DNA from: Phycisphaerae bacterium
GTDB taxonomy: Bacteria > Planctomycetota > Phycisphaerae > UBA1845 > PWPN01
Direction of reading: 5' to 3'
Assembly (NCBI GenBank): GCA_018003015.1
Contig: JAGNEZ010000002.1
Span: 186,001 to 250,000 of the forward strand
Length of the DNA: 64,000 bases
The position numbers were made by a program, and so were the translations under genes. Below, one piece after another: positions 9,162 to 61,918 of this stretch (its first letter is position 1; every line of letters starts with the position of its first letter). The notes beneath the pieces were generated by a model. The model did no database searches. It saw only the letters and a list, made by a program, of their open reading frames with translations, and was not told the origin of the DNA.

Positions 9162-9202
9162 AGGGTTCCTCCTGGGCGCCGGGAAGGACAGGGTCGACCG
9201 TC

Positions 9203-9216
9203 GCGCGACTTGCGCC
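9203..9216 (-). promoter_or_regulatory. degenerate copy of a shared upstream palindrome
   Basis: The plus-strand sequence GCGCGACTTGCGCC aligns to the element at 10213-10229 with two single-base deletions, and keeps outer GCGC arms. It lies 42 nt upstream of the sialidase start. Similar elements precede both neighbouring secreted-protein genes at 45-60 nt. Confidence 0.35.
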
Positions 9217-9403
9217 GTCGCTGGTTGGGCGAAGTCGTGGTCGGAGGGGGCGACTCGGCGACACACTCCTCGCCGCCCCGCACGCGTGCCTGCGTCTCAG
9301 GCCCTGTCGCCGGGCACATCGCAACAGCCACCCGCATGCCGGCCGATGTGGGCGGTTCGGTTCTCAGCGTCGCCGGCGTTGGACGGTGCGTTGGGCGTTT
9401 TTG

Positions 9404-10153
9404 TCAAGCCAACCGGCGCCGGCGGGGCCGTCGCAGGCTTGCGCTGGCGAGGGCCAGCATGACCAGGCTGATCGGCTCGGGAACAGCGGTGACGGCGGCG
9501 GTGAACTCGACGCCCCAGTCCTTGATGGCTCCGGGGTATTCCACCTGGGCAATATTGCCGACCAGGTATCCCGGTCCCGGGCCGGGGGTGCTGTCGTTTC
9601 CGGAGGTGTTGACGCGGCTGCGGAAACTGGACACCTCGCCCTCGATTCCGTCCTCGGAGAAGACCAGCCAGTAGGTAGCGTCCTTGTCCAGGGTGATGCC
9701 GGCGAAGCTGAAGGTGAAGGACTCGCCGGGTGCGATCGGGTCGACGCCGTCATTGAATATGACCGAGGTGGTTGACGAGCCGAGGTAGCCGGAGAAGGAC
9801 AGGATTCCGTCGCGGGTCGTGTAGACATCCACGAAGACGGGGGCGGCCACGGTGCTGAGTTGCCCGTTGCCGGTGCCGAGTATGGGCGTCTGGGTGGTGT
9901 CGTTTGCGGGGCGCGTGAAGGTCAGGGCGTCCAGGGTGAGGGACGGGAATGTGTCGAGGGCGCCGAGTGGACTGACGCTGTTCGGGAACTCACCCGCCGT
10001 CGCCCGGAACGCGAACGCGGAGTAGTTGGCCCGGTCTCCCGCCGTGCCGGACCATGGATTGGTGATGGTTGCGGCGTCCGCTGCGGCAGAGAGGCCGAGG
10101 GCCAACAGGCAACCGGCGACGGCCAGGGTCGCCACGCGTTTGTTTTTGACCAT
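9404..10153 (-). CDS. PEP-CTERM sorting-signal protein with unknown beta-rich ectodomain
   Basis: A 249-residue exported protein. It has a signal peptide ending near AADAA (residue 28), then a roughly 195-residue ectodomain starting TITNPWSGTAGD. The end is a classical PEP-CTERM signal: VPEP at 224-227, a hydrophobic segment and an Arg cluster. In known systems PEP-CTERM proteins are cut and anchored by an exosortase together with exopolysaccharide synthesis. No exosortase is in this window, but an XrtA-type deacetylase lies at 44.3 kb. The ectodomain is very similar to the N-terminal domain of the next gene upstream, a clear paralogue. The ATG at 10153 follows GGGAGGA. Confidence 0.85.
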   Translation of the reverse strand: MVKNKRVATLAVAGCLLALGLSAAADAATITNPWSGTAGDRANYSAFAFRATAGEFPNSVSPLGALDTFPSLTLDALTFTRPANDTTQTPILGTGNGQLSTVAAPVFVDVYTTRDGILSFSGYLGSSTTSVIFNDGVDPIAPGESFTFSFAGITLDKDATYWLVFSEDGIEGEVSSFRSRVNTSGNDSTPGPGPGYLVGNIAQVEYPGAIKDWGVEFTAAVTAVPEPISLVMLALASASLRRPRRRRLA

Positions 10154-10212
10154 GGTGTTTCCTCCCAACTCCTTTGGTTGAGGTATGACACGCGAGCCGG
10201 CGTGTGCGGGCT

Positions 10213-10229
10213 GGCGCGACGTTCGCGCC
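10213..10229 (-). promoter_or_regulatory. perfect palindrome upstream of the PEP-CTERM gene
   Basis: GGCGCGA and TCGCGCC flank CGT, a perfect 7-bp inverted repeat about 60 nt upstream of the start at 10153. A one-mismatch copy precedes the paralogous gene at 14290, and a shortened copy precedes the sialidase gene. It could be an operator or an mRNA leader hairpin. Confidence 0.5.
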
Positions 10230-10330
10230 ATGCATGGTCTGCTCACCGCCACGGGTTCCACGGTTTTGCCGGTACGCGAGCAGTCCGAGTCGCCGTGGCG
10301 TCCTGCTGAGATCCGTCGCCCGTCGAGCTG

Positions 10331-13300
10331 TCAGGGCAGCGACAGGCAGTCGGGATTGGCCTCCACGTAGGGTCCCGAGGCGCACCTGACGAAGTCCTCC
10401 ACATCCTGTGATGTGATGGCCAGGTCGCTGTCGGTGTCGAAGCAGGCGCACTCGGCTCGGGGCCATTGTCCGGAAACGGTCCCGAAGCACAACTGGAGCA
10501 TGCTGAAGTCCACCTGGTCGACGTCTCCGTCCTGGTCTCCGTCCACGATCGGGGTTCCGCATCGGGTGAAGGTGCCGATCATGGTCGCGTACTCGTTGGC
10601 GATCCAGTCCGCCGAACGCGCGACGTTGGCCAGGCGGATTTCGTCCATCAGTCCGTTGAACCAGTTGCCGGATGTATCCCACACCCCGCCTCCGCCGATC
10701 TTGACGGTGTAGCTGGAGGCGCCGTAGTAGCCGGGCTTATTGGCGATTTCGTCCACGGGGGCATCGCCGCCGGTGGCCACCAGGACGCCGTCGATGAACA
10801 GCTGGGGCCCAGGCACCGCCGGGTATGCTCCTGGGACTCCCGGATTGCCGACCAGGTGCAGGTAGTGCCACTCGTTGAGGGCGGGCGTGTAGGGGGCTAC
10901 CACGCTTCCGGCGGCCAGGGTGTAGCCGGTGAGGTCGAAGGGGGAGGCTGTCCCGGTGATGAAGCCGAACTCGATGGCGTCGTTTTGCCCGAACAATCCC
11001 ATCCGGGTTCCGAGGGTTTTCGGGTGGATCCACCCGCTGAGGGTGAACTCATGCAGGTTGCTGAGGAAGGGGCTGCCGAGGTCGATGAACGCGCTGGTGC
11101 CATCGAACCTGCGGCCCAAGCCGATCGCGCCGACCGGGTCGACCTCGTCGGGCACGCTGGTGGTGTTCGTATTCATGCCGTTGCGGCCATGGGCTGTCGA
11201 GTCGGTGATGGCGACCGGGTCGGCGAAATGATAGACGCCCAGGTAGGAGGACGACCACGTGCTGCGGGCCATCTGGGCAGCGGCGGCGTCCGGGTAATTC
11301 CAGTACATCCAGATGTAGTCGCCGACGGAGGAGACCTGGGGGGCTCGCACCCAGATGAGCGAGGTTCCGGTCGGATCCCACTTCTCGATCTCGAATGCCA
11401 GGGCGGTGGTCACGGCGGCATCGGAGAACCGGATATCTGCTCCGGTCGCGGCGAAGCCGGCGTAGTCATTCGTGGCGGATGCGGTGAGCGTGACCAGCAC
11501 GGGGAAATCCTGGAGGGGCGTGCTGCCCCGGAAGCCGCCGAAGCCGATCCTGCGCTTATTCTGCCAATTGCTGATGGCGTCCTCGGCCGCGTCGGCGATC
11601 GTGACGGTTGCGTCGGGTGTTCCGGCGATGGCGTAAGCCACGCGATCGGTGAGCGTCAGGACGACGGTCTCGGACCCCTCCAAGGGCAGCCAGTCATGGA
11701 TCACGTTCACCGCGAGTGTTGCCTCGCTCTGGCCGGCGGCCAGTGTCAGTGTGCCGGGCAGGGCGGTGTAATCACCGCCGGCGGTTGCTGTTCCGCTCAC
11801 CTTATACTCGATGGTCAGCGGCAGGTTCATGCTGCCTCCCGAGCGAGTGATCAGGAACTCGCCGTGGGTGGCGGGCTCGGCCGCGTTCGATTGGCTGGCC
11901 GCGATCTGGACCTGGGCCGCGCTGCCCCCGTAGAGAATGAAGTCGTCCACCATGGTGGCGTACTGGTTCGCGATCCAATCGGCGGACCGGGCGGCCGCCA
12001 GGATCTGCACCTCGTCCACGACACCGGTGAAGTACTGGGCGGCGGCGGCGTGGCGCCCGAACTTGAGCGAGCTGGTTTCGGCGATCGGCGGGCCGGACGG
12101 TCCCTCGTTGAGACTGACCAGCACACCGTCACGATAGCTCTTGAGGGTCTCGCCGTCGTAGGTTCCCACCAGGTAGTACCAGGTCTCAGCCTCAAGCGGT
12201 TCGAGACTGGAGGAGTACCAGGCGGCCCCTTGCACGCCGCCTTGGCAGTTGAGGGCGAAGGCGCCCTGGAACGCGGCCTGGGCGTGGTTCCAGTTGATCT
12301 GGTAGTTGCTTTCGCGATGCACGAGGCCGCTGGCCTGGAGGGAAATGGGTGCGGCCGGGCTGCGGGCCCAGGCGGTCACCGTAAAGCCCGTGCTGCTGAT
12401 GCCGTCGCCGAGGTTCTCTCTATTGCCCGTGTCCAGGTAGTTCTGCTGGCTGGCCGCGAAGCTCACCCCTTTTCCGATCCGGGCGAGTACGGGATCGGGC
12501 AAGTCGGGGGTGGCCAACGCGCTCATCGGGCTGGCGTCGTTGCCGCGCAGGGTGGAGTCCAGATAGCGGCCGTCGTTGCCGGGCCCGTTCAGGTGCCAGA
12601 CACCGATGTAGTCGCCGGACCACAAGAGGTTAAGGCATTGGGCGGCGATGGCTGTCGGGTTGTTCCAGACCAAGGTCATCGAATCGGAGCCGCTGGCGAT
12701 GAGCGGTACGCGCACCCAGATGAACGATGCCCCGGCCGGATCCCAGCTCTCGATCTCGAAGGGGAGGCTCAGATCCCCGAACTTGAAACGGATGTCCGCA
12801 CCGTTGGCCGCGAAGCCCGCGTAGTTGCCCACGCGATCGGGTGTCAGCACCACGAGGAGGGGGAAGTCGGTCAAGGCTTCGCTCCCGGTATAGCCCCCGA
12901 AGACCAGGGGGAGTGATTGCGTCCAGTGATTCCAGGAACCGTCGTCGGCGATGGTGACGGTGGCCGAGCTCTGCGGCCCGACCGCGTACTGGGCGATCGG
13001 GGCATTGCTGGGAGTGATGGTCAGGATGACGGTTTCTGTTCCCTCAGTGGTGCCGTCCTCGAAAGGGGTTACCGGGATGGTCACACTGGCTTCGCCGGCG
13101 GGAATGACCAAGATTCCGTTGAGGTAGGCGTAGTCGGCCGCGTTCGTGGCTCCGCCGGACATGGCGTAGGCGATGGTCAGCGCAAACAGCGTTGGGCCCG
13201 TGCGAGTCACGACGAAAGACCCGGGGTCACCTGCCACCTCGCCGGCCGCTGCGTCTGGCGCCTGCACGGTCACGGTGGCGGGTGTGTCGTCGCTGGTCAG

Positions 13301-48447: not shown

Positions 48448-51400
48448 TCATCGGGCGGGAGGCTGTGCTCCGATAGGCCGCCCGTTCTCTCCCGCCGTTC
48501 TGAGCCGGCTTCTGGCTGGCAACTGGAACATCTCAATCGTCGGGATCAGTTCGCCTGACCTGATCCGGTTTCCGAATGCATTGAGCAGGGCGGGGTTCAT
48601 GTATTCGGTGGGTACCGGGCCCGACAATTGGACGTCTTGGGTGGTTGCCTCCAGGCTGTGTTGCTCAAGGCCCAGTTCCTGTTGGATGCGCCTCACGCCG
48701 CCCATGTCGCGTTCACGACGGCGGTTCAGTCCATAGCCGATGTATCGTGCCTCGTTGCCGGGGCCGAAGTAGAACGTATTGTAGTCGGATTCGGTTGGGC
48801 GCTTGGTGCAGACCATGGGGATGAAGTTGACCACCTTCTGTGGTTCCTGGCCGAAGAACAGGTTGTTCTTGACGACGACTCGCCCATCGAGGTTGAAGCA
48901 GTCGATCAGCGGCACATACCAGGTGTTGCCCGTCAGGGTGAATGCTCGGGTTTGCCGGGCGTTGGCGGCGTGGGCGAATCCGGTGATGACGCAGTTCTGG
49001 ATGGTGATGTGGTCACCGCCGCGAGCCACGATACCGTGGCCGTATCCGATGCCCCAGCCTGCCAGGACGCAGTTCTGGATCGTGACCTCGCCGCACCGGG
49101 CGAGGAACACCTGGCTGGAGCAGAGTCCCGCCCGGTCGCCGTAGGCCTTGTCCGCGAAACGTCGGATGACGAGTCCGTCGATGACGATCTGGTCCTTCCA
49201 GAAGAGGGCGATGGCGGCCGGCCGCAGGAATGTGCTTCCGTCCAGGCAGGCGCGTCCGGGTGATCGGGCCTTGAGTGTGATGGGGGCGTCCTGGGTTCCG
49301 GTGGCCGCCGGGGCGAACATCTCGTGGTAGATGCCGTCGAGCAGGACTGCCGTGTCGCCGGCTCGCACGCGATCGCTGACCGCGGTGAGGGTAGTAGGGG
49401 CCCGTTCGTCCAGGCCGGGATTGGCTTCGCTGCCCGTCGGGGCGACGTAGAACGTTCGGCGTGTCGGCTTCCACTCGGCGACCGTGGGTGTTTTGAAGGC
49501 CAGGGTCTGGCTTTCCGCTCCGCGCCAGCCGGTTCGGGGGGCGGCTGCCGCGTACGGTTGTCGGATGCTGTCCCGCCATGGGCGGTCGGGGATCACGATC
49601 TTGAACTGATACAACGTACCGGGTCTGAGATCATGCAGCGTGACCTGATGGTACAGGTCCCCGAACGAGTACTGTCGACCGTTGGCGGTCGAATTCGTTC
49701 CGTAGTGGATCTCGCTGTGTACGGGATGATCGGCGCTCCAATCCAGTGGTGTTCGCCAAGTGGCGTTCGACGTGTAAGGCGTCCACCAGGTGAGGCTGGC
49801 GGTCGTTGGCGTCACGTCGCGAAGTTGGATCTCGGCAATTTGAGGTTCGATCGGTTTGCTCGCGGTCTGGCCTGCTCCGATGTTGTAGCACAATTCGCCG
49901 GCCGCCACGCACGGCGAATCCGGCTCGATCGAGGCGAGGCTATCCGGATCCGACCATCGCGGTTCGGCCGCGAGGCTGTATCGATCCCCACCGGTCAACC
50001 TCTGCAAAGCCGTCAGGTCCTGGGCGGGTCGGCCGTTGACGATCGCCAGCGGGGGAGGGCAGGAGTAGTCGTTGTATTCGCAGAACAGGCCGCGGGTGTG
50101 ATCGATGCTGGTGTCCAGCGAGCGCCCGGCCGCGGCGTGCAGGATTGAGCTGGTGATTCTGACGTCTTTGGAGACGCCTCTCAGCCGGATTGCGGATCCG
50201 GTGGTGCTGGACACGCTGAGTCGACGGAGCCAGATGTCGGCTCCGTTCTCGACGGTGAGGGCATCGCCGGCTGCTGTGAGCAGGCGGCAGCGGTCCAGCC
50301 GGATATTCGTTGTGTCGCGGAGGACTGCGCCTTCCTTGATCCCGAGGTTGTCGACCCACACATGCTGCAGTCCGCTCAGATCGAGACGGTTGACGGAGAC
50401 GTTCGGTCCAAGGGTCCGCCCCCGGATCATCACCGGCCTCTCGGCTGTGCCGGATGTCTCCGGGCGCACCGGCTCACGGTACTCGCCCTCGAGCAGGTAG
50501 ACGGTTACGCCGGGACGGCATTCGCGCATCGCCCGGCCGGCGGTCTTGAAGGCCTGGTTGACGCTCAGTCCGCTGTTGCTGTCGTTGCCCGTCGGACCGA
50601 CGAAGAACACACTCGGCTCGAAGGGATGGGCGCCAAGATCGGCTCCGTCCGGTCCTCTGCCGCGGAACGGGCTGTCGGCCTGCAGGCGGTAGTCGAGGTG
50701 ATCCGGGGCCGCGAATCGCGGATCGCCCTGGTCAGGTCCGAAGAACAGGGTGTGCTTGCCCATCCATGGTTGGGGGCCTTGGGCCCAGAAACCCGGCGCC
50801 TGCAGGGTGTTGTGGTCTTCCCGGAGATCGTTTCCGAACGCGCCGGAATACCAACTGAAGTGGCTGCAGCCCACGGAGACGTTACGTACTGCAGATCTTT
50901 TTCCCTTGCTGGCCTTGAAGTCGATCCCGATCGCATGGTCCTTGACGATGTTGCCCGCGACCTCGCCATCCGAGGGCTGACCGTAGTTGCGGATGCCATA
51001 CATCTGGGCATTCAGGAGCGTGTTGTTGAGTATTCGCACGCCCTCGCTCTGCCCCGTGCAGTAGATCTGGGCGAGTTCGCCGTAACCCGGATTGAGATTC
51101 CCGATCAAGAGGTTGTCGCGAATCACGCATTTCCTGGCGTTGATGGTGATTCCGCCGCCGTTGAACAGGAATCCGCATCGTCGGATCTCATGCTGCTGGC
51201 CTGTGACCGACATGCCGAAGCCTCGACCCGAGTCCCGCATCTGCGTGGGAAAGAAGCCCTCGATCACCAGGCCGTCGACGTGGACGTACTCTCCGGTAAT
51301 CTCCACGCCATAGGCTGGGATGACGGTGGCGGCGATGACGTGCTGGTCGGGGGGCTGGCCGTCGCTGGTGTGGATGTACAGGATCTTCGCACGGGGGTCA

Positions 51401-51897
51401 TACAGGTGAGACCGCCTGAACTGGTCCATGTCGACCAGCGCAGGAGCCTCCAGATAGGCGGTTTGCGTGTCCCGCTCCAGGACTCGGTAGACGGGGCGAC
51501 TGCGGGGGATCGACCAGATGAAGCGCATGCCCTCGACCTTCCGGAAGCCCCTGACGATCTCATTTCCTCGGATGACAGAGAACTGAGGGATGGCTGCCCG
51601 GATGGTGATGGGCTTCTCGGCCGTGCCGGATCGTCGCATGGTGAACCGCTGGAGGTACTCTCCCGGGGCGAGGGTCAAGGTATCGCCGGGGGCCAGGCGG
51701 TCTGCTCCCTTCTGGATGGTGCGCAGGGCGGAATCGGGGCTTGTACCGCCGGTCTCGTCGTGTCCATCCGGCTTGACGAAGTACTCGGCTGCCGAGGCGA
51801 GGGGGGCCAGCAGGAGAAAGATAGTCAAGGCGGCCAACGGTAGACGGGCGGTCAGCTGTCCGGACCGGCCTGCCGCAATCGTGGTTCCTGGGGTCAT
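48448..51897 (-). CDS. secreted protein with three right-handed beta-helix modules
   Basis: A 1149-residue exported protein. After a signal peptide (cleavage near ASAAE, about residue 37) it has three homologous parallel-beta-helix modules, each opening with a DUF1565-like segment: YFVKPDGHDETGG (38-425), FFVGPTGNDSNSG (426-685) and FYVAPTGSEANPG (812-1149). An Fn3-like domain (686-785) sits between modules 2 and 3. Such proteins bind or cleave polysaccharides as lyases, epimerases or glycanases. No catalytic set was identified. The ATG at 51897 overlaps the upstream gene's stop as ATGA. Confidence 0.85.
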   Translation of the reverse strand: MTPGTTIAAGRSGQLTARLPLAALTIFLLLAPLASAAEYFVKPDGHDETGGTSPDSALRTIQKGADRLAPGDTLTLAPGEYLQRFTMRRSGTAEKPITIRAAIPQFSVIRGNEIVRGFRKVEGMRFIWSIPRSRPVYRVLERDTQTAYLEAPALVDMDQFRRSHLYDPRAKILYIHTSDGQPPDQHVIAATVIPAYGVEITGEYVHVDGLVIEGFFPTQMRDSGRGFGMSVTGQQHEIRRCGFLFNGGGITINARKCVIRDNLLIGNLNPGYGELAQIYCTGQSEGVRILNNTLLNAQMYGIRNYGQPSDGEVAGNIVKDHAIGIDFKASKGKRSAVRNVSVGCSHFSWYSGAFGNDLREDHNTLQAPGFWAQGPQPWMGKHTLFFGPDQGDPRFAAPDHLDYRLQADSPFRGRGPDGADLGAHPFEPSVFFVGPTGNDSNSGLSVNQAFKTAGRAMRECRPGVTVYLLEGEYREPVRPETSGTAERPVMIRGRTLGPNVSVNRLDLSGLQHVWVDNLGIKEGAVLRDTTNIRLDRCRLLTAAGDALTVENGADIWLRRLSVSSTTGSAIRLRGVSKDVRITSSILHAAAGRSLDTSIDHTRGLFCEYNDYSCPPPLAIVNGRPAQDLTALQRLTGGDRYSLAAEPRWSDPDSLASIEPDSPCVAAGELCYNIGAGQTASKPIEPQIAEIQLRDVTPTTASLTWWTPYTSNATWRTPLDWSADHPVHSEIHYGTNSTANGRQYSFGDLYHQVTLHDLRPGTLYQFKIVIPDRPWRDSIRQPYAAAAPRTGWRGAESQTLAFKTPTVAEWKPTRRTFYVAPTGSEANPGLDERAPTTLTAVSDRVRAGDTAVLLDGIYHEMFAPAATGTQDAPITLKARSPGRACLDGSTFLRPAAIALFWKDQIVIDGLVIRRFADKAYGDRAGLCSSQVFLARCGEVTIQNCVLAGWGIGYGHGIVARGGDHITIQNCVITGFAHAANARQTRAFTLTGNTWYVPLIDCFNLDGRVVVKNNLFFGQEPQKVVNFIPMVCTKRPTESDYNTFYFGPGNEARYIGYGLNRRRERDMGGVRRIQQELGLEQHSLEATTQDVQLSGPVPTEYMNPALLNAFGNRIRSGELIPTIEMFQLPARSRLRTAGENGRPIGAQPPAR

Positions 51898-52841
51898 AGC
51901 TTCTTCTCGAAGATGACGAACCGCCGGGTGGCCTCGAGGCCGAATCGCCGGTAGAACCTGGCCGCCTTCTCTTCAGCCCAGTTGAACCAGACGGTGCGGC
52001 CGTCGGCTTCGCGGATTCGTTGGACGGCCTCGATGAAGAGCTTGGCTCCAACGCGCCGGCCTCGCAGGTTCTCTCTCACGCCGAACGGGCCGAAGTGTTC
52101 ACCTTCCCACTGGCAGTACCCGACGACCTGTCGGTCAATGATTGCGACCAGGACCTCGTGGAGCAGTCCGGCGCGGATCTTCGCCCGGGCAGCGGTGTTC
52201 CAGTCCCCGGGGAACGACTCGGCGAGAAACTCGACGAAATCCTGCACCAACTCGGGCACGAGCGACACGACCTTGACATCATCGCCGGTTGCCCAGGCCT
52301 CGGCACGGAACCTGTCCACCTCGAAGTCGACGATCTCTCGGGCCATGGACTCTGATTCGCGGTTGGTGCTGAAGCCAGTTTTCCTGAAGAGAGCGAGTCC
52401 GCCGGGGTACAGGTCCTTGTCCACGCCTGGGAAGATGTAGCCTGGCGCGGAGCCGCTGCCGCCGCAGACCCAGATGCGTTTGCGGCCGTGACGGCGGAAG
52501 TAGGCCAGGGCGGCCTCCATGAGGTCGGTGCCGATTCCCGCCCGCTGATGGTCAGGGTCGACGGCCACGATCGGGATCCAGCCCACCTCGGGCTCGAGGC
52601 CGATGCGATCGTTGGGCAGTCGCCGGATGATCGCCCGGAGGAAGCCTACCGGCCGGTCGTGGCTGGTGGCCAAGAAGAAGCCGGAATCATCGCCTGCCCA
52701 GTAGTCGGGATCGGCCAGAATCCCGGCCACGAAACGCCCTTCCGTCATCGGGTCGCGTCTCAGGGCTCGATTCCAGATTGCCAGGACGTTGCCGACATCG
52801 GAGCCGATGAGTGTGCGGATCTTCGTCTGACTCGTCGCCAT
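51894..52841 (-). CDS. tandem GNAT-domain acetyltransferase
   Basis: A 315-residue cytosolic protein with two GNAT folds. The first (residues about 8-150) shows IVAVDPDHQRAGIGTDLMEAAL, the acetyl-CoA motif; the second (about 170-315) shows FGVRENLRGRRVGAKLFIEAV and FYRRFGLEATRRFVIFEK. Two-domain GNATs often acetylate amines of small molecules or antibiotics. Its 4-nt overlap with a secreted beta-helix protein is odd, since the two act in different compartments. It faces the PspA-type operon across 200 nt. Confidence 0.85.
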   Translation of the reverse strand: MATSQTKIRTLIGSDVGNVLAIWNRALRRDPMTEGRFVAGILADPDYWAGDDSGFFLATSHDRPVGFLRAIIRRLPNDRIGLEPEVGWIPIVAVDPDHQRAGIGTDLMEAALAYFRRHGRKRIWVCGGSGSAPGYIFPGVDKDLYPGGLALFRKTGFSTNRESESMAREIVDFEVDRFRAEAWATGDDVKVVSLVPELVQDFVEFLAESFPGDWNTAARAKIRAGLLHEVLVAIIDRQVVGYCQWEGEHFGPFGVRENLRGRRVGAKLFIEAVQRIREADGRTVWFNWAEEKAARFYRRFGLEATRRFVIFEKKL

Positions 52842-53055: not shown

Positions 53056-53811
53056 ATGATCGCAGGCAAGCTGTGGCACGCTATCAAGGCTCAGATCAAC
53101 AAGATCGCGAACTTTTTCTGGACAGCCGACCCCATTGCCCAGATGCAGTACGAGTACGACTTGGCCGTCAATCAGCTGAAGGAAGGCCGGGAAGGCCTGG
53201 AGCAGTACCGGGGCCTGGTCGAGCGTGTCGGCCGGCAGGTTGCCGCGAACAAGGCCCACGTTGCCAACCTGGAGGCCAAGGTGAAGGCCTATCTTCAGGC
53301 GGGCGACCGGGAGTCGGCTGGCAAGTACGCCCTCGAACTGCAGAAGGCCAAGAAGGAGCTGTCTGAGAACGAGGCTCAGCTCAATCTTCATGAGGAGGCG
53401 TACAACAACAACCTGCTCAAGATCAAGCATGCCAGCGGCAAACTGGCTCAGGTGCGCGACAAGATTTCCAAGTATGACGCTGAACTGAAGATGAGCCGGG
53501 CCGAGGCGGAGATGGCCAAGCTCGCCACGGACTTCAACTTTGACGTGACCACGGATTTCGGCCAGATCGAGCAGGTGATCCAGGACAAGATCGGATTGAA
53601 TCGAGCGAAGGCCCGCGTGGCTGCCGATCTGTCCGGTGACGGGATTGCTGACATCAAGCAGGAGCAGGCCATGGAGAAGGTCATGGCCGACCAGGCTCTG
53701 CGCGACTTCGAAATCCAGGCTGGCCTGGTGACCCCGGAGACGGCCAAGGTGACGGACACGGCGAAGGAACTCGGCCCGGCGAAGGAGAAGCAGGTGATGA
53801 CCGATGAGTGA
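53056..53811 (+). CDS. PspA/IM30-like coiled-coil membrane-remodelling protein
   Basis: A 251-residue, almost wholly helical protein. An amphipathic N-terminus (residues 1-25, LWHAIKAQINKIANFFWTA) is followed by long coiled coils to about 170 (YRGLVERVGRQVAANKAHV, LELQKAKKELSENEAQL) and a shorter helical end. This is the PspA/IM30/Vipp1 (ESCRT-III-like) outline, in which the amphipathic helix binds stressed inner membrane. It is divergent, so the call is by architecture more than by motif. The ATG at 53056 was preferred to 53035. First gene of the locus, next to an AAA+ ATPase that could remodel it. Confidence 0.75.
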   Translation: MIAGKLWHAIKAQINKIANFFWTADPIAQMQYEYDLAVNQLKEGREGLEQYRGLVERVGRQVAANKAHVANLEAKVKAYLQAGDRESAGKYALELQKAKKELSENEAQLNLHEEAYNNNLLKIKHASGKLAQVRDKISKYDAELKMSRAEAEMAKLATDFNFDVTTDFGQIEQVIQDKIGLNRAKARVAADLSGDGIADIKQEQAMEKVMADQALRDFEIQAGLVTPETAKVTDTAKELGPAKEKQVMTDE

Positions 53812-53892: not shown

Positions 53893-55740
53893 ATGACGCA
53901 GAATGCGCCCGTATCCCATTGCGACTCATCACTTGTGGCCCGTCCTTTCGATCTTCCTTCGTTCTTCCCTGCCTGGGCAAGGTCCCTGGCCGAGGCTTAC
54001 TTCTCCGGAACGACCTGTCTGTTCGTTCTGCACGGGAATGTTCATGATCTGATCCCGTTGTCGAACGACGAGAATGGCGGCTATTGCGGTCTGCCCGAGT
54101 TCCTGGCGGCGCAGGTGTTTGGATCATGGCATTTGGTCCTGCACTATGATCTGGGGCAGGGATTGCGGCCGATGAGTGGGGGCGATCCCGACCGTCTCAA
54201 GGAGATGGTTCAGTATTTGACTGCACGCATGGGCGAGCCGGCATCTTGGCCGCGCGACCCCGACAAAGTGCTCCTTTTGCTGGACGCGCTGATCGAGCGG
54301 AACCTGCTGGAGGATGATCCCGGTCGGCGCAAGAAGATCGCCGTGGTTCTGGATTATGCCCAGTACCTGGCGCCGGCTGGCGACCTGGGGGCGCTGGCCC
54401 GCGGGCAGGGCACGAATCTTGTCCGGATGCTGTCCTGGGCCCAGAATCCGTACATCAAGCGCATCAACGTCGCGTTCATCCTGGTGGCGGACAAGCTCTC
54501 CGAGGTGAACGACCGGCTGGTCCAGAGCCCTCATGTGGCCGCGATTGAGATTCCACTGCCCGACATCACGACGCGGGAGGCCTTTGCCCGGTGGGCGGCC
54601 GGCCAGGTCGATGCCGGCAAGTCCGGTTCGTCTCCGGTGATGGAGGCGCAGGGCTCGACGAGTGGTCCGCCGACGGGCCAAAACATGTCCCCGGCCGAGT
54701 TGGCCGTCATGTCCAATGGCCTGAGTCTGGTGAATCTCAACGTGGTCCTGTCCCAAGCCCGGCATGCGAAGCGGGGTGTGGATCCTGGGCGTTTCAAACA
54801 GCTCAAGAAGACCATGATCGAGCGGCAGTGCCAGGGGCTGGTCGAGTTCGTGGAGCCGCCGCACACGCTCGACTTGGTCACCGGCCAGGCCGCCGCCAAG
54901 CAGCGGCTGCGCGACGATGCCGATCTCATTCTGCACAACCGGCTGGAGGCGGCCCCGATGGGCTACCTGTTAAGCGGGCCGGTCGGCACGGGCAAGACAT
55001 TCCTGGCCGAGTGCTACGCCGGCTCGGTCGGCATTCCCTGTCTGAAACTCCGCAATTTCCGATCGAAGTACGTGGGCGAGACGGAGGGTAATCTGGAGAA
55101 CGTGCTGACCGTCCTTCGTTCGCTCGGACCGGTGGTGGTCATCATTGACGAGGCTGACGCGGCTTTGGGTAATCGCTCGGCGGAAGGTGACTCGGGCACA
55201 TCAAGCCGCGTATTCTCCATGATTGCCAGCCAGATGGGCGACACCCGCTATCGCGGCAAGATTGTCTGGATGCTGCTGACTTGCCGGCCCGACCTGCTTC
55301 CGATCGACCTGAAACGGCAGGGGCGGGCCGAGGTGCACATTCCGATGTTCTATCCGCAGGACGAGGCCGAGGTTCGGGAGATGTTCCTGGCCATGGCCCG
55401 GAAGAACAAGGTGGTCCTCAGACCTGAGACGCTGCCGCCGATCACCGCGCAGGGGCAGCTCAGTGGTGCGGACATCGAGAGCATCGTCCTGACCGCCAGG
55501 CGGAAGGCTCTCGGGGCCGGTCGAACGGAACTGGCCCAGACGGACGTCCAGGAGGCCTTCACCGAGTTCATCCCGTCAGCTCACGGTCTGGAGAAGGAGC
55601 TGCAGGAACTGGCGGCGGTGCTGGAATGTACCCAGCTGACGTTCCTGCCGCCCAAGTGGCGCGCGAGGGTTGCAGAGCCCGGTGGCCGGGCCCAGCTCCA
55701 GGAGCGGATGATGGCCATTCGAAGCCTGTTGAAGGACTGA
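53893..55740 (+). CDS. AAA+ ATPase with a degenerate first ATPase domain
   Basis: A 615-residue protein resembling the Ycf46-like AAA group. The C-terminal AAA+ core has Walker A GPVGTGKT (from about residue 361), Walker B VVVIIDEADAA (about 414-424), TCRPDLLPIDLKRQGR as sensor-1/Arg-finger region, and SGADIESIV as sensor 2. Residues 30-230 form an ATPase-like fold without a P-loop: LFVLHGNVHDLI stands where Walker A would be, and IAVVLDYAQYL resembles Walker B. It probably works as a hexameric motor. Directly behind the PspA-like gene, it may disassemble PspA polymers or act on the VWA protein. Confidence 0.85.
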   Translation: MTQNAPVSHCDSSLVARPFDLPSFFPAWARSLAEAYFSGTTCLFVLHGNVHDLIPLSNDENGGYCGLPEFLAAQVFGSWHLVLHYDLGQGLRPMSGGDPDRLKEMVQYLTARMGEPASWPRDPDKVLLLLDALIERNLLEDDPGRRKKIAVVLDYAQYLAPAGDLGALARGQGTNLVRMLSWAQNPYIKRINVAFILVADKLSEVNDRLVQSPHVAAIEIPLPDITTREAFARWAAGQVDAGKSGSSPVMEAQGSTSGPPTGQNMSPAELAVMSNGLSLVNLNVVLSQARHAKRGVDPGRFKQLKKTMIERQCQGLVEFVEPPHTLDLVTGQAAAKQRLRDDADLILHNRLEAAPMGYLLSGPVGTGKTFLAECYAGSVGIPCLKLRNFRSKYVGETEGNLENVLTVLRSLGPVVVIIDEADAALGNRSAEGDSGTSSRVFSMIASQMGDTRYRGKIVWMLLTCRPDLLPIDLKRQGRAEVHIPMFYPQDEAEVREMFLAMARKNKVVLRPETLPPITAQGQLSGADIESIVLTARRKALGAGRTELAQTDVQEAFTEFIPSAHGLEKELQELAAVLECTQLTFLPPKWRARVAEPGGRAQLQERMMAIRSLLKD

Positions 55741-55817: not shown

Positions 55818-56282
55818 ATGGCGACTACGAAGAAAGTGAAAAGGGCAGCCTCGAGGAAAGCCGTCGCCGCCAGGTCGGCAGGCAAGAAGGGGCCGGCGAA
55901 GGGCAAGGTCACCGCCAGGGGGAAGTCCAAGCCCGGCCCGAGGGCCAAGAAGACGGCCGGGAGGGCGGCCAAGGCTGCTCCGGCCAAGAGGGGATCCCGC
56001 CTGAGTTGGCTGGACGGTGCCTCCCACAGACCGCTGATCGACCGCTACGCCAGGCAGCTCCGCAGTTTCCTGGAAGCCGTGGCCGACGGCGTGATCGAGG
56101 AGCGCGAACTGGCTGCCCAGGAAGAGCGGCTGGTGAAGCTCATGAAAGAGGTGGAGCCCAGGCTCAATGACGCGCTGCACGCGAAAGTCACCGAGCTCCT
56201 GTGTGAGCTCACCGCGTACGACATCATGCAGATGATGCATGCAATGTGCGAGAACCGGCCCAAGAGCGTGTTCCAGGGTTGA
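55818..56282 (+). CDS. small protein with Lys/Ala-rich tail and helical C-terminal domain, function unknown
   Basis: A 154-residue protein. Residues 1-58 are a Lys/Ala/Gly/Arg/Pro tail (SRKAVAARSAGKKGPAKGK, RAAKAAPAKR) resembling histone H1 or AlgP tails. Residues 60-154 form a compact helical region (WLDGASHRPLIDRYARQL, EERELAAQEERLVKLMKEV, LCELTAYDIMQMMHAM). The basic tail could bind DNA, RNA or acidic phospholipids. It lies between the AAA+ and VWA genes and may be an adaptor. No family was recognised. Confidence 0.75.
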   Translation: MATTKKVKRAASRKAVAARSAGKKGPAKGKVTARGKSKPGPRAKKTAGRAAKAAPAKRGSRLSWLDGASHRPLIDRYARQLRSFLEAVADGVIEERELAAQEERLVKLMKEVEPRLNDALHAKVTELLCELTAYDIMQMMHAMCENRPKSVFQG

Positions 56283-56334
56283 CTCTGGATCCTCCCATGG
56301 GCCATGGATTGCGCGAAGGCGAGGAGGATGGGCC

Positions 56335-57195
56335 ATGAGACATGGCGGCTTGGGGCGCAGGTTTTTCCCGCGACGGCGGTGGACTGCGGGGTCGGACGTC
56401 AGCCGGGTTCATGTGGCGGGCATACGGGCCGTCATGTTCGTGGTGATCGTTGCCTTCATGGCCAAGTGGGTGCTCGGCGGCTGCGACGGCCGCCAGGTGT
56501 CACCGCCCCCGAGCAAGTCGGGAGTGGTATCGACCCAGGCACCTCCAGCCGGTGGTTCGACCATTCCCCTGCCGGAAGCCGAGCAGCGGGTGTGCACGGC
56601 CGTGGCGATCCTGATCGATACCTCGGGCAGCATGGAGCAGTCGGTCCGAGGCTCAACCGGCGGTTGGCAGCAGAAGTACGTCCTGGCTCAGGAGGCCCTG
56701 AAGCGGATTGTGGCTTACACGGCCCAATGGCAGAAGAACCACACTGACCGGCTTCTGAACGTGGGGATCTACCGTTTCTCCAGTTCACCGGTGCAGATCT
56801 TGCCGATGGGCGAATTCAGGGCCGATCAGGCCGACGCGGCGGTCAGCTCCATTGGTCGTCCGGGCGGCGGGACTGCCATTGGCGAGGCGCTGACTGCCGG
56901 ATTCAAGGCTCTCTACCAGTCCGGCTGCACGCGCAAGCATCTGGTGTGCATCACCGACGGCGAGAACACGGTGGGGCCGCGGCCGGATCGGATCGCTCAG
57001 CAGTTGTATGCCCAGACCAAGGGCGAGGTCGAGCTTCATTTTGTTGCGTTCGACACCTCGGCCAAGTACTTTGGTTTCCTGAACAGGGTAAACGGGCATG
57101 TGGTTGAAGCGGCCGACGGGGCCCAACTGCAGGCCAAGCTGTCTGAGATCTACGAGAAGCGGATCCTGGCGGAGCAGATGCCCGTCGAGAAGTAG
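56335..57195 (+). CDS. membrane-anchored von Willebrand factor A-domain protein
   Basis: A 286-residue protein with an N-terminal anchor (VMFVVIVAFMAKWVLGGC, about residues 33-50). The LGGC could be a lipobox, making it a lipoprotein. A Pro/Ser linker follows, then a VWA domain with the full MIDAS: D95-T-S-G-S99, the GGGTAIGEAL threonine, and CITDGEN. VWA domains bind protein ligands via Mg2+, and AAA+/VWA pairs (MoxR, CbbQ/O, BchD/I) act together, so partnership with the AAA+ at 53893 is plausible even though this VWA domain faces the periplasm. The ATG at 56335 has GAGGAGG upstream. Confidence 0.85.
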   Translation: MRHGGLGRRFFPRRRWTAGSDVSRVHVAGIRAVMFVVIVAFMAKWVLGGCDGRQVSPPPSKSGVVSTQAPPAGGSTIPLPEAEQRVCTAVAILIDTSGSMEQSVRGSTGGWQQKYVLAQEALKRIVAYTAQWQKNHTDRLLNVGIYRFSSSPVQILPMGEFRADQADAAVSSIGRPGGGTAIGEALTAGFKALYQSGCTRKHLVCITDGENTVGPRPDRIAQQLYAQTKGEVELHFVAFDTSAKYFGFLNRVNGHVVEAADGAQLQAKLSEIYEKRILAEQMPVEK

Positions 57196-57268
57196 CGGGT
57201 GTGGAGACGAAGGCGAGTGGAACGGCGGGCGTTCGGCCCGCAAGGTCCAGCAACATGGAGGTCAAGTC

Positions 57269-59002
57269 ATGGCAGGACAACCCAAGGCACCGTTCTTTGT
57301 GGCGCTGGCCCTGGTGGTCGCCGCGCTGGTGGGCTTCGCGATCTACCGGAGCGATCTCATCGCCCCGCGGGAGAGGAAGGCCGACACGGGCGGCCCCATG
57401 CAGTTGCCTCCGGCCCAGCAGGTCGAGAACGCCAGTGACGCCAGCGGCGTGACCACGGTCAAGGAATACACCTTCAAGGCCTCGGAGCGTCTGCCGGAGG
57501 TCAAGGGTACCAGCGCGTACAAGCCACTGGTGGACAACACCGTCCGCTTCGCCCTGAATGTTTGGGCTGGCTGGGCTCCGATCATTCTGGCCAATGAAGG
57601 CTTCAAGCCCAACCAGGTCTGGAAGACGGCCGACGGGCAGGAGTTCAAGGTCGAACTTGTGCTCATCGACAACCCGGTGGCCATGCGCGATGCTTATGCT
57701 TCCGGCGACGTGCATATAGGCTGGGCCACGCTGGACATGGTTCCGCTGTTCGTCGAGGGCTTCGTCGATTCCACCGGCAAGCCTCGTGACAGCCGGGTCA
57801 TGCCCCGCATCTACCAGCAGGTGGACTGGTCCAACGGCGGCGACGGCATCGTGGTCCGCGACGCCATCAAGACGGTGGCCGATCTTCGCGGCAAGCAGCT
57901 GGTGCTGGCTCAGAACTCGCCGTCGCATTACTTTGCCCTGAACATGCTGGTGGCGGGCGGTCTCCAGCCCTCCGAAGTCAACATGGTTTTCACCGAGGAT
58001 GCGTTCCAGGCCGCTGCGGCATTCAACACCCAGAAGGATATCGCCGGTGCCGTCTCCTGGGCGCCGGACATCTACAATCTCGAGAAGGTTGCGGGCAACC
58101 GGCTGCTGGTGACCACGGCCACGGCCAACAAGCTCATCGCCGACGTCTGGTTTGCCCGAGCCGACTTCGCCAAGGATCATCCGGGCATCTGCGAGGGGAT
58201 TGTCCGGGGCATCTTTGACGCCATGGTCACGCTCAAGGATGAGGCGGCCAGAAAGCACGTCGCGGAGCTGATGGCCCAGGGGTACAACATTCCTGCGTCC
58301 GACGCCCTGAACATGCTCGGCGACGCCCACAGCACGAACTGGGCCGAGAACTACCAGTTTTTCCGCAATCAGAACAATCCGGCCAACTTCGAGCGGATCT
58401 GGAATCAATCCTACTACCTGTATCGCAAGATCGGGGCGGTCAGGAATCCGCAGGTGCCGTTCGATCAGGTGATGGACTCCTCGGTCATCGAGAAGCTCGG
58501 CCAGGAAGAGAAGTACTCCTCCCAAAAAGACGAGTACAAGGTCCAGTTCACTCCGACCACGCCGGGCAGCATCAAGGCCGAGGACGAAATCCTGACCAAC
58601 ACCGTCTTCATTCACTTCTTCCCCAACAGCTGGGAACTTCGGAAGAAGGTGGCCAAGAAGCGGGAAGGCAAGGACGTCGAGGAGCTGTACGACCCCAACG
58701 TGGATTTCATTCTCGAGGACATCGCCAAGCTGGCCGCCCAGTTCGGTGCCGCCCGGATCATCATTCAGGGACACACCGACGGCTCGATGCGGAATCAAAT
58801 TCCCGCCACAATGGTCAAAGAGCTCTCGCTGCAGCGGGCCAACGCGGTCAAGGAAGAACTGGTCAACAAGTTCAAGATGGATCCCAACCAGTTCGCCGTC
58901 GAAGGAGTGGGCTGGGACAAGCCGGCCGACGCCAATGACCCCGACAACCACGCCAAGAACCGCCGGGTCGAGGTCAAGGTCTACCCGGCGGAGAAAGGAT
59001 GA
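57269..59002 (+). CDS. NitT/TauT-type substrate-binding protein fused to an OmpA peptidoglycan-binding domain
   Basis: A 577-residue fusion. A hydrophobic N-terminal helix (residues 8-25) without a clear cleavage site is likely a membrane anchor. Residues about 85-440 form a type II periplasmic binding fold of the NMT1/TauA kind (WAGWAPIILANEGF, GDVHIGWATLDMVPLF, VLAQNSPSHYFALNMLV, AVSWAPDIYNL). The C-terminal 110 residues are an OmpA_C domain with HTDG at 502-505, LSLQRANAV and NRRVEV near 564-569, the residues that contact diaminopimelate in peptidoglycan. The permease and ATPase genes follow. Such a fusion would tie an ABC transporter to the cell wall. ATG at 57269, GGAGG upstream. Confidence 0.88.
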   Translation: MAGQPKAPFFVALALVVAALVGFAIYRSDLIAPRERKADTGGPMQLPPAQQVENASDASGVTTVKEYTFKASERLPEVKGTSAYKPLVDNTVRFALNVWAGWAPIILANEGFKPNQVWKTADGQEFKVELVLIDNPVAMRDAYASGDVHIGWATLDMVPLFVEGFVDSTGKPRDSRVMPRIYQQVDWSNGGDGIVVRDAIKTVADLRGKQLVLAQNSPSHYFALNMLVAGGLQPSEVNMVFTEDAFQAAAAFNTQKDIAGAVSWAPDIYNLEKVAGNRLLVTTATANKLIADVWFARADFAKDHPGICEGIVRGIFDAMVTLKDEAARKHVAELMAQGYNIPASDALNMLGDAHSTNWAENYQFFRNQNNPANFERIWNQSYYLYRKIGAVRNPQVPFDQVMDSSVIEKLGQEEKYSSQKDEYKVQFTPTTPGSIKAEDEILTNTVFIHFFPNSWELRKKVAKKREGKDVEELYDPNVDFILEDIAKLAAQFGAARIIIQGHTDGSMRNQIPATMVKELSLQRANAVKEELVNKFKMDPNQFAVEGVGWDKPADANDPDNHAKNRRVEVKVYPAEKG

Positions 59003-59065
59003 TCGAGCCACCAGGACAGGGGTGAGGGAGGATCTGGGTGACGACACGAAAGAGCGGGTCGGGCG

Positions 59066-60103
59066 ATGAGTGAACAGCCTTCTTCCGCGGCCTCGTCGGC
59101 AGCGGCGGAGCCTGGGCCGGCGGCAGTTGCCCCGGGGGCCGCCGGCGTCGGGGTCTTGCGCCCGATCGGGTGGCTTTTTCGTGTGCGCGGTGAGCCGACA
59201 CTTTGGCAATCGGTCCTTTTCGGGGCCCTCTGCCTAGGCATCTGCCTGGGCGTCTGGTGGCTGGTGACCCGCGGCGAGGCGGAAAGCCGAACCGTGGGGC
59301 CGGCGGTCCTGCCGAGCCCGGGGGAGACTTTCGCCACCTTCGACACGCTATGGTTCGACCGGGCCCTGACGCGCAACACGTTGGCCAGTCTGCGGCGCGT
59401 GGCTCTGGGTTTCGGCCTGGCCACGCTGATCGGCGTTCCGTTGGGGGTGTTGTGTGGATGTTTCTCCTGGTGCCAGGCCTTCTTCGCCCCGCTTTCGATC
59501 TTCGGTCGGAACATACCCGTCGCGGCCCTGATCCCGCTGACTTTCTCGCTCTTCGGGATCGGCGAGCAGCAGAAGATCATGTTCATCTTCATTGCCTGTG
59601 TCGCCTTCATCATCTCGGATTCCGCCCAGGCGGTCCGCGACGTGGACATGCGCTACGTGGATACCGCCCACACGCTCGGCGCGCGAAGGCGGCAGATCAT
59701 CATGAAGGTCCTGGTGCCGTTGGCCTTGCCGGACATCTTCAATTCTCTGCGCCTGCTGTTCGGGCTGGCGTTCGGGTACATCATGCTGGCTGAACTGGTG
59801 AAGTTCGGCGGTGAGAGCGGCGGATTGGGCGACATCATCATCACATCGCAGCGGCGCGGACCGAAGGAGCACATCCTCTTGGTGCTGATGATCATTCCGG
59901 TCGTGGCCCTGGCGATCGACCGGATCCTGTATTGGGCCCAGCGAGAGCTGTTCCCGCATCGATACGGGGGTTTCGGCTTCTTGCACGCGGGGGTGCGCTT
60001 CGTCGTGCATCTGTGGGAGGACCTGAAGGGCTTGTTCTGGCGCTCCCACCGGCGGGTTGAGCTTCCTGTCACCTCGGTTTCGGCCCCGGAGAAGAAACCA
60101 TGA
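59066..60103 (+). CDS. ABC transporter permease, NitT/TauT family
   Basis: A 345-residue inner-membrane permease of the BPD_transp_1 type. After an Ala/Pro-rich cytosolic extension (1-45) there are about six hydrophobic segments. DTAHTLGARRRQIIMKVLVPLALPDIF (about residues 200-226) is the coupling-helix EAA motif that docks on the ATPase. The pattern resembles SsuC/TauC/NrtB, transporters of sulfonates or nitrate, but here the binding protein carries an OmpA domain. The stop overlaps the next start as ATGA. Confidence 0.9.
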   Translation: MSEQPSSAASSAAAEPGPAAVAPGAAGVGVLRPIGWLFRVRGEPTLWQSVLFGALCLGICLGVWWLVTRGEAESRTVGPAVLPSPGETFATFDTLWFDRALTRNTLASLRRVALGFGLATLIGVPLGVLCGCFSWCQAFFAPLSIFGRNIPVAALIPLTFSLFGIGEQQKIMFIFIACVAFIISDSAQAVRDVDMRYVDTAHTLGARRRQIIMKVLVPLALPDIFNSLRLLFGLAFGYIMLAELVKFGGESGGLGDIIITSQRRGPKEHILLVLMIIPVVALAIDRILYWAQRELFPHRYGGFGFLHAGVRFVVHLWEDLKGLFWRSHRRVELPVTSVSAPEKKP

Positions 60104-61041
60104 GTGATCCTCTGCTCGCCCCGGTCACCGCCGCACCCGCCGCGGCCGCGCTTGGCACTGCGTTGAGAGGGTTCTCGGCCCAGCCGGTCGGTGTGGGCCA
60201 GGTACTACCCGCCGTCCGCAAGCCGGAGGAACTGACCCGTCCCCACGTGGTTCAGTTCAACCGGGTGACGAAAACCTACAACCCCGGCCAAGCCAACGAG
60301 TACACGGCCATCACAGAGGTGACCTTCGTGGTCGAGGATCTGGCAAACAAGGGCGAGTTCATCTGCGTTCTTGGGCCCAGCGGTTGTGGCAAGAGCACGA
60401 TTCTTAGGCTCATTGCCGGCTTGGAGCCGCAGCATCCCGCGACATCGGGCGAAGTCTTGGTGTTGGGCCGGCCGGTGACGGAGCCCGGGGCGGACCGCGG
60501 GATGGTCTTCCAGGACTACACGAGCTTTGACCATCGCACCGTTCTGGAAAACGTGACCTTCGGCCTGGAGTGCCAGGGCATGCCCCGGAGGGAGCGCCAG
60601 GGGCTGGGCCGGGAATGGGTCAAACGCGTCGGGCTGGACGTGGACAAGGATGCCAACAAGTACCCCCATGAGCTCTCCGGTGGCATGCGTCAGCGCGTGG
60701 CCATCGCCCGCACGCTGATCCTGGAGCCCCGGATTATCCTCATGGACGAGCCTTTTGGGGCCCTTGACCCGATGACGCGGATGAACATGCAAGACCTCCT
60801 CCTCGGCCTCTGGCGATCGGTGGAAGCCACCGTCTTCTTCGTGACCCACTCCATCGAGGAAGCGGTTTTTCTGGGTGACCGGGTCTACGTGATGAGCAAC
60901 TCACCGGGTACAATCCTCAAGGAGTTGACCATCGAGCCGTCGGACCGGCCGTCCCGGGAGATGCAGCGCGAGCCGCGTTTCCAGGAGACGGTGTTTTTCA
61001 TTCGGGATCTGATCAGCAAGCTCGAGGAAGGTCGCGACTAG
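60100..61041 (+). CDS. ABC transporter ATP-binding protein, NitT/TauT family
   Basis: A 313-residue ABC ATPase with Walker A GPSGCGKS (residues 92-99), Q-loop MVFQDYTS, signature LSGGMRQR, Walker B IILMDEPFGALD and the H-loop His in FFVTHS. A roughly 45-residue Ala/Pro-rich N-terminal extension precedes the core and parallels the extension of the permease. It powers the transporter whose permease overlaps it by 4 nt. Confidence 0.93.
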   Translation: MSDPLLAPVTAAPAAAALGTALRGFSAQPVGVGQVLPAVRKPEELTRPHVVQFNRVTKTYNPGQANEYTAITEVTFVVEDLANKGEFICVLGPSGCGKSTILRLIAGLEPQHPATSGEVLVLGRPVTEPGADRGMVFQDYTSFDHRTVLENVTFGLECQGMPRRERQGLGREWVKRVGLDVDKDANKYPHELSGGMRQRVAIARTLILEPRIILMDEPFGALDPMTRMNMQDLLLGLWRSVEATVFFVTHSIEEAVFLGDRVYVMSNSPGTILKELTIEPSDRPSREMQREPRFQETVFFIRDLISKLEEGRD

Positions 61042-61051
61042 GACGGCTAGC

Positions 61052-61918
61052 ATGCGCTTTGCCAAGTATCTCAAGGTCGCCTTCCTGAACCGCTGGAACC
61101 TGCTGGTGACCGCGGGAGCCATAGGTTTCGCGATGTTGAGCGGCCAGGCCGACATCTGGGTGCCGCTGGTCCTGGCCGGCGAAGTGACCTACCTCGGACT
61201 GCTGGCCTCCCATTCGCGTTTCCAGGCCTACGTGGACGCCCATGAAGCCAAGGTGTTCCGGCAGCAGGGGACGGACACGGCTCAGCAGACCTACCGGACG
61301 ATCATCCAGTCCCTGCCGCCCAAGTCGGTCGAGCGATTTCGTCTTCTTCGTTCGCAGTGCCTCGAGCTCCGCCAGATCGCCCAGCAGCTCAAAGGGCCGG
61401 AGGCGGTCGAGCCCGCGGCCATCCTCGAGGAGTCCCAGGGGGCCGGCCTGGATCGACTTCTGTGGATCTACCTGCGGATGCTCTACACCCAGTATTCCAT
61501 CGAGCGCTTTCTGCAGAAGACCAGCGAGGCCCAGATCCAGAGGGATATCGCCAGCCTCGAGGAGCGGCTCAAGGCCGTAACCGGGGTTAGCGACGAAGTC
61601 CAACGGCAACGATTCGCCAAGGCCCTGGAGGACAACCTTCAGACCTCCCGGGATCGGCTGGCCAATTACCAGAAAGCAAAGGCCAATTGCGAACTGGTTC
61701 AACTGGAACTGGAACGGCTCGAGAACAAGATCCGCTCGCTCAGCGAGTTGGCGGTGAATCGCCAAGAGCCCGACTTCATTTCGGCTCAGGTGGACCAGGT
61801 GGCGTCCAGCATGGTTCAGACCGAGCGGACGATGAATGAGCTGCAATTCGCCACGGATCTCGGGATTCCTGATGAGACCGTTCCCGAGCTTCTGCGGACC
61901 GAGAAACTGCTCCAGTAG
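61052..61918 (+). CDS. two-TM coiled-coil membrane protein, function unknown
   Basis: A 288-residue protein with two closely spaced N-terminal hydrophobic segments (LLVTAGAIGFAMLSG, WVPLVLAGEVTYLGLLA; residues about 16-55), then a long helical, coiled-coil cytoplasmic part (IQRDIASLEERLKAV, LVQLELERLENKIRSLSEL). The layout is like XpaC-type (5-bromo-4-chloroindolyl phosphate hydrolysis) membrane proteins, but I see no sequence motif that proves it. It starts 10 nt after the ABC ATPase and closes the locus. It may link the transporter to the PspA/AAA+ proteins inside the cell. Confidence 0.8.
   Translation: MRFAKYLKVAFLNRWNLLVTAGAIGFAMLSGQADIWVPLVLAGEVTYLGLLASHSRFQAYVDAHEAKVFRQQGTDTAQQTYRTIIQSLPPKSVERFRLLRSQCLELRQIAQQLKGPEAVEPAAILEESQGAGLDRLLWIYLRMLYTQYSIERFLQKTSEAQIQRDIASLEERLKAVTGVSDEVQRQRFAKALEDNLQTSRDRLANYQKAKANCELVQLELERLENKIRSLSELAVNRQEPDFISAQVDQVASSMVQTERTMNELQFATDLGIPDETVPELLRTEKLLQ

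Follow-up and report, generated by a model that had tools for sequence, protein, structure and literature searches.

The operon and its genes

The window (the whole stretch of DNA that we analysed, 64,000 nucleotides long) carries an operon with, in order, genes for a PspA-like protein, an AAA ATPase, a small protein, a VWA-domain protein, a fusion of a solute-binding protein (SBP) to an OmpA_C domain, a permease, an ABC ATPase and a membrane protein with a coiled coil (Table 1). The first-pass annotation of this DNA concentrated on the fusion protein and its reading is supported in part, but it did not place the protein in this PspA/AAA/ABC operon, which we see as its main context.

Table 1. 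Features of the operon and of its fusion protein, with the related Vibrio plasmid operon. Positions are those of the window unless a locus is named; counts are for 46 homologous loci with enough flanking sequence.
Feature	Position	Strand	Basis
PspA/IM30-like protein	53056..53811	+	PF04012, 39.1 bits against a cut-off of 33.9; 42/46 loci
AAA+ ATPase	53893..55740	+	PF00004; 38/46 loci
Small conserved protein, unknown family	55818..56282	+	30/46 loci; no Pfam match above cut-off
VWA-domain protein	56239..57195, real start probably 56335	+	PF00092; membrane anchor/lipobox-like start, intact MIDAS
SBP-OmpA fusion protein	57269..59002	+	577 aa, ATG to stop; Pfam, AlphaFold2 model, homologs
N-terminal hydrophobic helix, residues 7-26, probable uncleaved inner-membrane anchor	57287..57346	+	Hydropathy, AlphaFold2 helix 7-27
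NitT/TauT-type solute-binding domain, residues 90-407	57536..58489	+	Pfam, TauA fold match
Pocket acids D192 and D292	57842-57844 and 58142-58144	+	Aligned with TauA Glu106 and Asp205
OmpA_C peptidoglycan-binding domain, residues 446-576	58604..58996	+	Pfam, fold, D/R conservation
Diaminopimelate-contacting pair D504 and R523	58778-58780 and 58835-58837	+	Alignment to Acinetobacter OmpA 3td3
ABC importer permease, TauC/NrtB-like	59066..60103	+	PF00528; 43/46 loci
ABC importer ATPase, TauB/NrtD-like	60100..61041	+	PF00005; 44/46 loci
Coiled-coil membrane protein, no known family	61052..61918	+	AlphaFold2 model, pLDDT 77; 42/46 loci
Vibrio plasmid operon	L182 7387-17486 (NZ_AP019851.1); L183 6152-16274 (NZ_AP025146.1)

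The AAA protein has one active site, with Walker A at residues 362-369 and Walker B at 417-422, and a long N-terminal region without a P-loop. A single Walker A is present in 79 of 80 homologs, and hhalign gave no alignment of the N-terminal half with the C-terminal half. For the importer subunits the best NCBIfam matches are TauC/NtrB/SaoP models for the permease and TauB/SaoA/NtrCD models for the ATPase, and in homologs of the ATPase the signature and Walker B are intact in 79/79 and Walker A in 75/79. The protein encoded by the last gene is modelled by AlphaFold2 as an N-terminal helical hairpin, with two likely TM helices, followed by a long coiled coil. It has no Pfam match, a fold search returned no more than unspecific helical hits (best E 0.1) and profile comparison with the PspA family gave no detectable relation. 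Its residues W15, E44, Y47 and W138 are invariant.

The VWA proteins of the various loci start with a TM segment, a lipobox or a signal-like sequence, and those that are complete have the DxSxS MIDAS motif. The small protein has a basic N-terminus rich in lysine and alanine and a conserved C-terminal part, and in the core planctomycete loci its gene is usually directly 5' of the fusion or VWA gene. Scans for promoters and terminators did no better than shuffles.

On the minus strand the operon is adjoined by a gene (48448-51897) for a secreted-looking protein of 1149 aa, with repeats resembling a parallel beta-helix, and a gene divergent from the operon (51894-52841) encodes two tandem GNAT acetyltransferase domains. 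A role in anti-phage defence is unsupported, since PADLOC gave only generic ATPase matches and a match to ZorB by way of its OmpA domain alone.

The fusion protein

The start of the fusion gene is backed by a GGAGG at 57257-57261, 7 nt before the ATG, and the gene is present in a single copy in the source genome. A minus-strand ORF of 752 aa (56951-59209) spans the whole gene, but as the plus-strand protein is the conserved one we judge the antisense ORF to be probably a high-GC mirror artefact.

The Pfam matches are all above cut-off, with NMT1, NMT1_2 and Phosphonate-bd (PF09084, PF13379 and PF12974) over residues 91-344 and OmpA (PF00691) at 476-564 with an E value of 2.7e-13. NCBIfam yields weak matches far below the cut-offs, some to proteins that bind urea or taurine and many to OmpA_C proteins. 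An AlphaFold2 model of the full chain, built from 38 homologs (mean pLDDT 77), has a helix at 7-27, disorder at 33-69, a TauA-like SBP fold and an OmpA_C fold; as the pTM is only 0.61 we do not interpret the relative placing of the two domains. Together with the motifs GHTDGS, LSLQRA and NRRVEV, these results confirm the earlier proposal that an SBP is fused to a complete OmpA_C domain. Homologs with 59-99% identity are found in about 80 contigs of Planctomycetota and Verrucomicrobiota, and the fusion is thus no artefact. The nearest named relatives are in Planctomycetota MAGs. For residue conservation we also used a wider set of 126 homologs in three tiers: core (88), mid (22) and far (16).

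The solute-binding domain

The closest structural matches of the SBP domain are TauA, SsuA, NrtA and CmpA, and by VIA-align it superposes on TauA (6ssy) with a Z of 26.2 and an rmsd of 3.3 over 289 residues. It falls well short of the TauA equivalog level in NCBIfam, with 52.7 bits against 490 for PRK11480 and 43.4 against 304 for TIGR01729. TauA binds the sulfonate through Gln30 and main-chain amides and uses Glu106, Thr132 and Asp205 for the amine; at the Asp205 position SsuA has glycine (PMC6906117). In our alignment N97 corresponds to Gln30, D192 to Glu106, P218/S219 to Thr132/133, W264 to Trp176 and D292 to Asp205. The two acids are kept in all 88 core and all 22 mid-tier homologs, and in 15 of the 16 far ones.

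The retention of acids at both amine positions of TauA indicates a pocket of the amine-accepting kind, and the ligand is probably a small, amine-bearing solute. The pair would fit any small amine, and the wall fragment suggested as ligand in the first-pass annotation is neither favoured nor disfavoured by it. A distantly related SBP with the annotation 'putative urea' binding (v3 of the Vibrio plasmid L182) has the pair too, so it cannot name one ligand. The operon has no catabolic gene that would reveal the ligand.

The OmpA_C domain

The C-terminal part has its VIA-align matches in the peptidoglycan-binding domain of Klebsiella OmpA (7rjj, Z 15.4 over 117 residues) and in TagL (5m38, Z 15.4). 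In Acinetobacter OmpA the residues that bind diaminopimelate are D271 and R286 (PMC6572160). In alignment with structure 3td3 these residues correspond to the Asp of GHTD, which is D504, and the Arg of LSxxRA, which is R523. The comparison with OmpA proposed in the first-pass annotation thus finds both contacts in place, and they are invariant in 47/47 aligned homologs. In the wider set D504 is kept in 85/88, 21/22 and 14/16 of the core, mid and far tiers, and R523 in 85/88, 20/22 and 16/16, with most of the remaining core cases being gaps. The source genome encodes a MurE with the DNPR motif, which we take to be the mark of a MurE that adds meso-diaminopimelate. The domain may well bind peptidoglycan in vivo, as these residues would lead one to expect.

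Conservation and distribution of the gene set

The VWA gene was found in at least 7 of the 46 homologous loci, and this is a lower bound because only three sequences went into the VWA model. VWA proteins are encoded by near relatives, by divergent planctomycetes and also by genomes from the Verrucomicrobiota sample, and recur in the divergent operons L114, L117, L118, L163 and L165-L167 and in the Vibrio plasmid version. Gene order varies by lineage, examples being PspA-AAA-Hyp-SBPO-Perm-ATPase-Cterm, VWA-PspA-SBPO-Perm-ATPase-Cterm-AAA and SBPO-Perm-ATPase-Cterm-PspA-AAA. The recurrence of the gene set in differing orders favours a shared function over the mere inheritance of gene order.

The distribution of strong full-length relatives of the fusion protein (E < 1e-100) is patchy, with 26 of 294 sampled Planctomycetota and 5 of 288 genomes in the phylum of L093, a Verrucomicrobiaceae MAG. 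More distant fusions occur in both of these groups and on Vibrio plasmids. Very divergent fusions (26-30% identity) at L011 (1498-3045), L134 and L136 have signal peptides that look cleavable. Around the very divergent fusions of L168 and L172, most partner genes of the operon were not found. A contig labelled Deltaproteobacteria (L034) has a 75%-identical copy in the same operon, and is probably a mislabelled or misbinned planctomycete contig.

Proposed function and alternatives

On balance, and with modest confidence, we favour the view that the fusion protein is a wall- and membrane-tethered receptor for a NitT/TauT-type ABC importer, within a PspA/AAA operon for membrane maintenance. The receptor would lie in the periplasm, held by its inner-membrane helix and by non-covalent binding of OmpA_C to diaminopimelate of the wall, and the tether would concentrate it on that side of the inner membrane which faces the wall. 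The SBP domain would capture a small, probably amine-bearing solute and deliver it to the permease and ATPase of the next two genes, which we take to work in the direction of uptake. The PspA-like and AAA proteins would act on the inner face of the same membrane, and the links between them and the importer may be the coiled-coil membrane protein and the VWA protein of the periplasm. In this way solute uptake may be coupled to membrane maintenance under envelope stress, a physical coupling that is suggested by the gene neighbourhood.

We consider it somewhat unlikely that the SBP domain is instead a sensor of envelope state, its conformation being shifted by ligand or by wall tension and the signal passing through the ABC subunits, the VWA protein and the coiled-coil protein so that PspA/AAA are brought in to repair the membrane. 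The constant presence of PspA/AAA with the ABC subunits, an SBP domain that is highly conserved (mean identity of 76% in the homolog alignment), a linker between SBP and OmpA domains that is constant at 37-40 residues, and a periplasmic, MIDAS-bearing VWA protein that could act as a protein-binding partner are all in keeping with such a sensor, but the retention of a full importer with intact motifs is not. Nor is the N-terminal part of the protein, as a mechanical ruler would need a conserved linker length and anchor type. The linker between the TM helix and the SBP domain ranges from 33 to 65 residues among homologs with a mean identity of 24%, and divergent relatives keep the OmpA domain but have a lipobox or an apparently cleavable signal in place of the TM segment. 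With one linker variable in length and sequence and the other fixed, the arrangement looks like a flexible tether rather than a ruler, and the earlier suggestion that the protein senses the distance between wall and membrane is weakened.

It is also unlikely that the N-terminus is a cleaved signal peptide, which would leave a periplasmic receptor tethered to the wall only; this would be compatible with the role in import but not with a double tether. The relevant segment is a run of 20 uncharged residues bracketed by K6 and R27, with runs of 19-20 residues in the 46 aligned homologs measured. We calibrated its best 19-mer hydropathy against E. coli K-12 proteins, of which six signal anchors gave 1.92-2.68 and seven cleaved or lipoprotein signals 1.45-2.06. 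The fusion protein has 2.63, above all seven of the latter, and sampled homologs 2.05-2.77. The helix also has 58% identity, in contrast to the low identity of the linker that follows. However most homologs have a G/A-x-A triplet at residues 22-24 (the canonical AxA in 14/47), which makes cleavage after A24 possible, and distant relatives have apparently cleavable signals. On balance the helix is likely to be uncleaved, as first proposed. As read by eye, most mid-tier members of the family have a TM anchor, and an apparently cleavable signal is present in L127, L134, L136, L011 and other divergent relatives. At L158 there is a tandem pair of fusions (7463-9097 and 9176-10945), one with a TM anchor and one with a lipobox; the lipobox, LMTGC, is in the second copy (7463-9097), and was read 5' of the called start.

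The double tether of the receptor, by an inner-membrane helix and a peptidoglycan-binding domain, is accordingly supported at the level of sequence, by the presence of D504 and R523 and of the DNPR motif in MurE of the same genome. A more far-reaching proposal, which we think quite unlikely, is a trans-envelope device in which the wall-bound receptor, via the ABC transporter and the periplasmic VWA protein, would control an ESCRT-III-like PspA/AAA remodelling machine across the membrane, with ligand or wall detachment as the trigger for repair. Very unlikely is recovery of peptidoglycan turnover products, with the OmpA domain holding at the wall a receptor for a wall-derived amine (diaminopimelate, D-alanine or a small peptide): a wall-binding domain is indeed fused to a receptor with acids at both amine-binding positions, but characterised TauA-type pockets accept very small ligands and the operon has no peptidoglycan-recycling enzyme.

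ABC importers are usually seen as pumps for nutrients, and PspA is seen as a protein of the stress response. Here an importer and PspA share one operon that is widely conserved, with a receptor that would be fixed to the wall. This is a testable candidate for a link between uptake, wall and membrane repair, and is of relevance for Planctomycetota, since the biology of their envelope is poorly understood. Experiments could start from the recurrence of the VWA partner, the retained acids of the amine site and the exchangeable anchor.

Comparison with known systems

The operon type was described from genome comparison by Ravi et al. (2024, mSystems, PMC11237479), with the same gene set of PspA, AAA, ABC ATPase, permease and SBP-OmpA fusion, the last as a "PBPB and OmpA" protein (example OGG56892.1). 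In that paper the role proposed for the OmpA domain is the same as ours and the overall interpretation is similar, so our finding belongs to a kind already described, apparently at the level of genomic prediction only. The AAA protein is described there as having an inactive-looking N-terminal half, with a second, inactive AAA domain. The published operon type also includes a Snf7/ESCRT-III homolog with a TM segment, which is possibly our coiled-coil protein, but as the latter has neither a significant fold match nor a PspA-family profile match the Snf7 label is not reproduced here. VWA or von Willebrand domains are not mentioned in the main text of PMC11237479, whereas they recur in our near and divergent loci. 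Relative to that main text the VWA partner is new; the retained amine-site acids, the variability of the anchor and the TelA-containing version on Vibrio plasmids are also new. In our literature search, which did not extend to SBP-OmpA fusions under other names, a description of the operon was found in PMC11237479 alone. There was no mention of OmpA or Planctomycetes in PMC9239133, and no relevant paper turned up for TelA, VWA and OmpA together.

The likeness to TauABC is in the SBP fold, the families of the ATPase and permease, and the amine-binding acids. However TauA is a free periplasmic protein whose signal is cleaved off and which lacks an OmpA domain, and our operon has no taurine dioxygenase.

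The same OmpA_C wall-binding domain, with D and R, is present in the anchors MotB, Pal, TagL/TssL and ZorB, and MotB resembles the fusion protein also in its single N-terminal TM helix. None of these is known to have a solute-binding domain, and the machines to which they belong are otherwise of another kind (motor, envelope linker or secretion system).

The Vibrio plasmid operon has the order ABC ATPase, SBP/OmpA, VWA, second SBP/OmpA, TelA, 'putative urea' SBP and permease. It has in common with the planctomycete operon an SBP-OmpA fusion, VWA protein, ABC ATPase and permease, but differs in the low identity (24%), in having two fusions and TelA, and in that no PspA or AAA gene was seen. The first of the fusions has an apparently cleavable N-terminus and the VWA protein is lipoprotein-like. 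We see it as a TelA-containing counterpart of the PspA operon.
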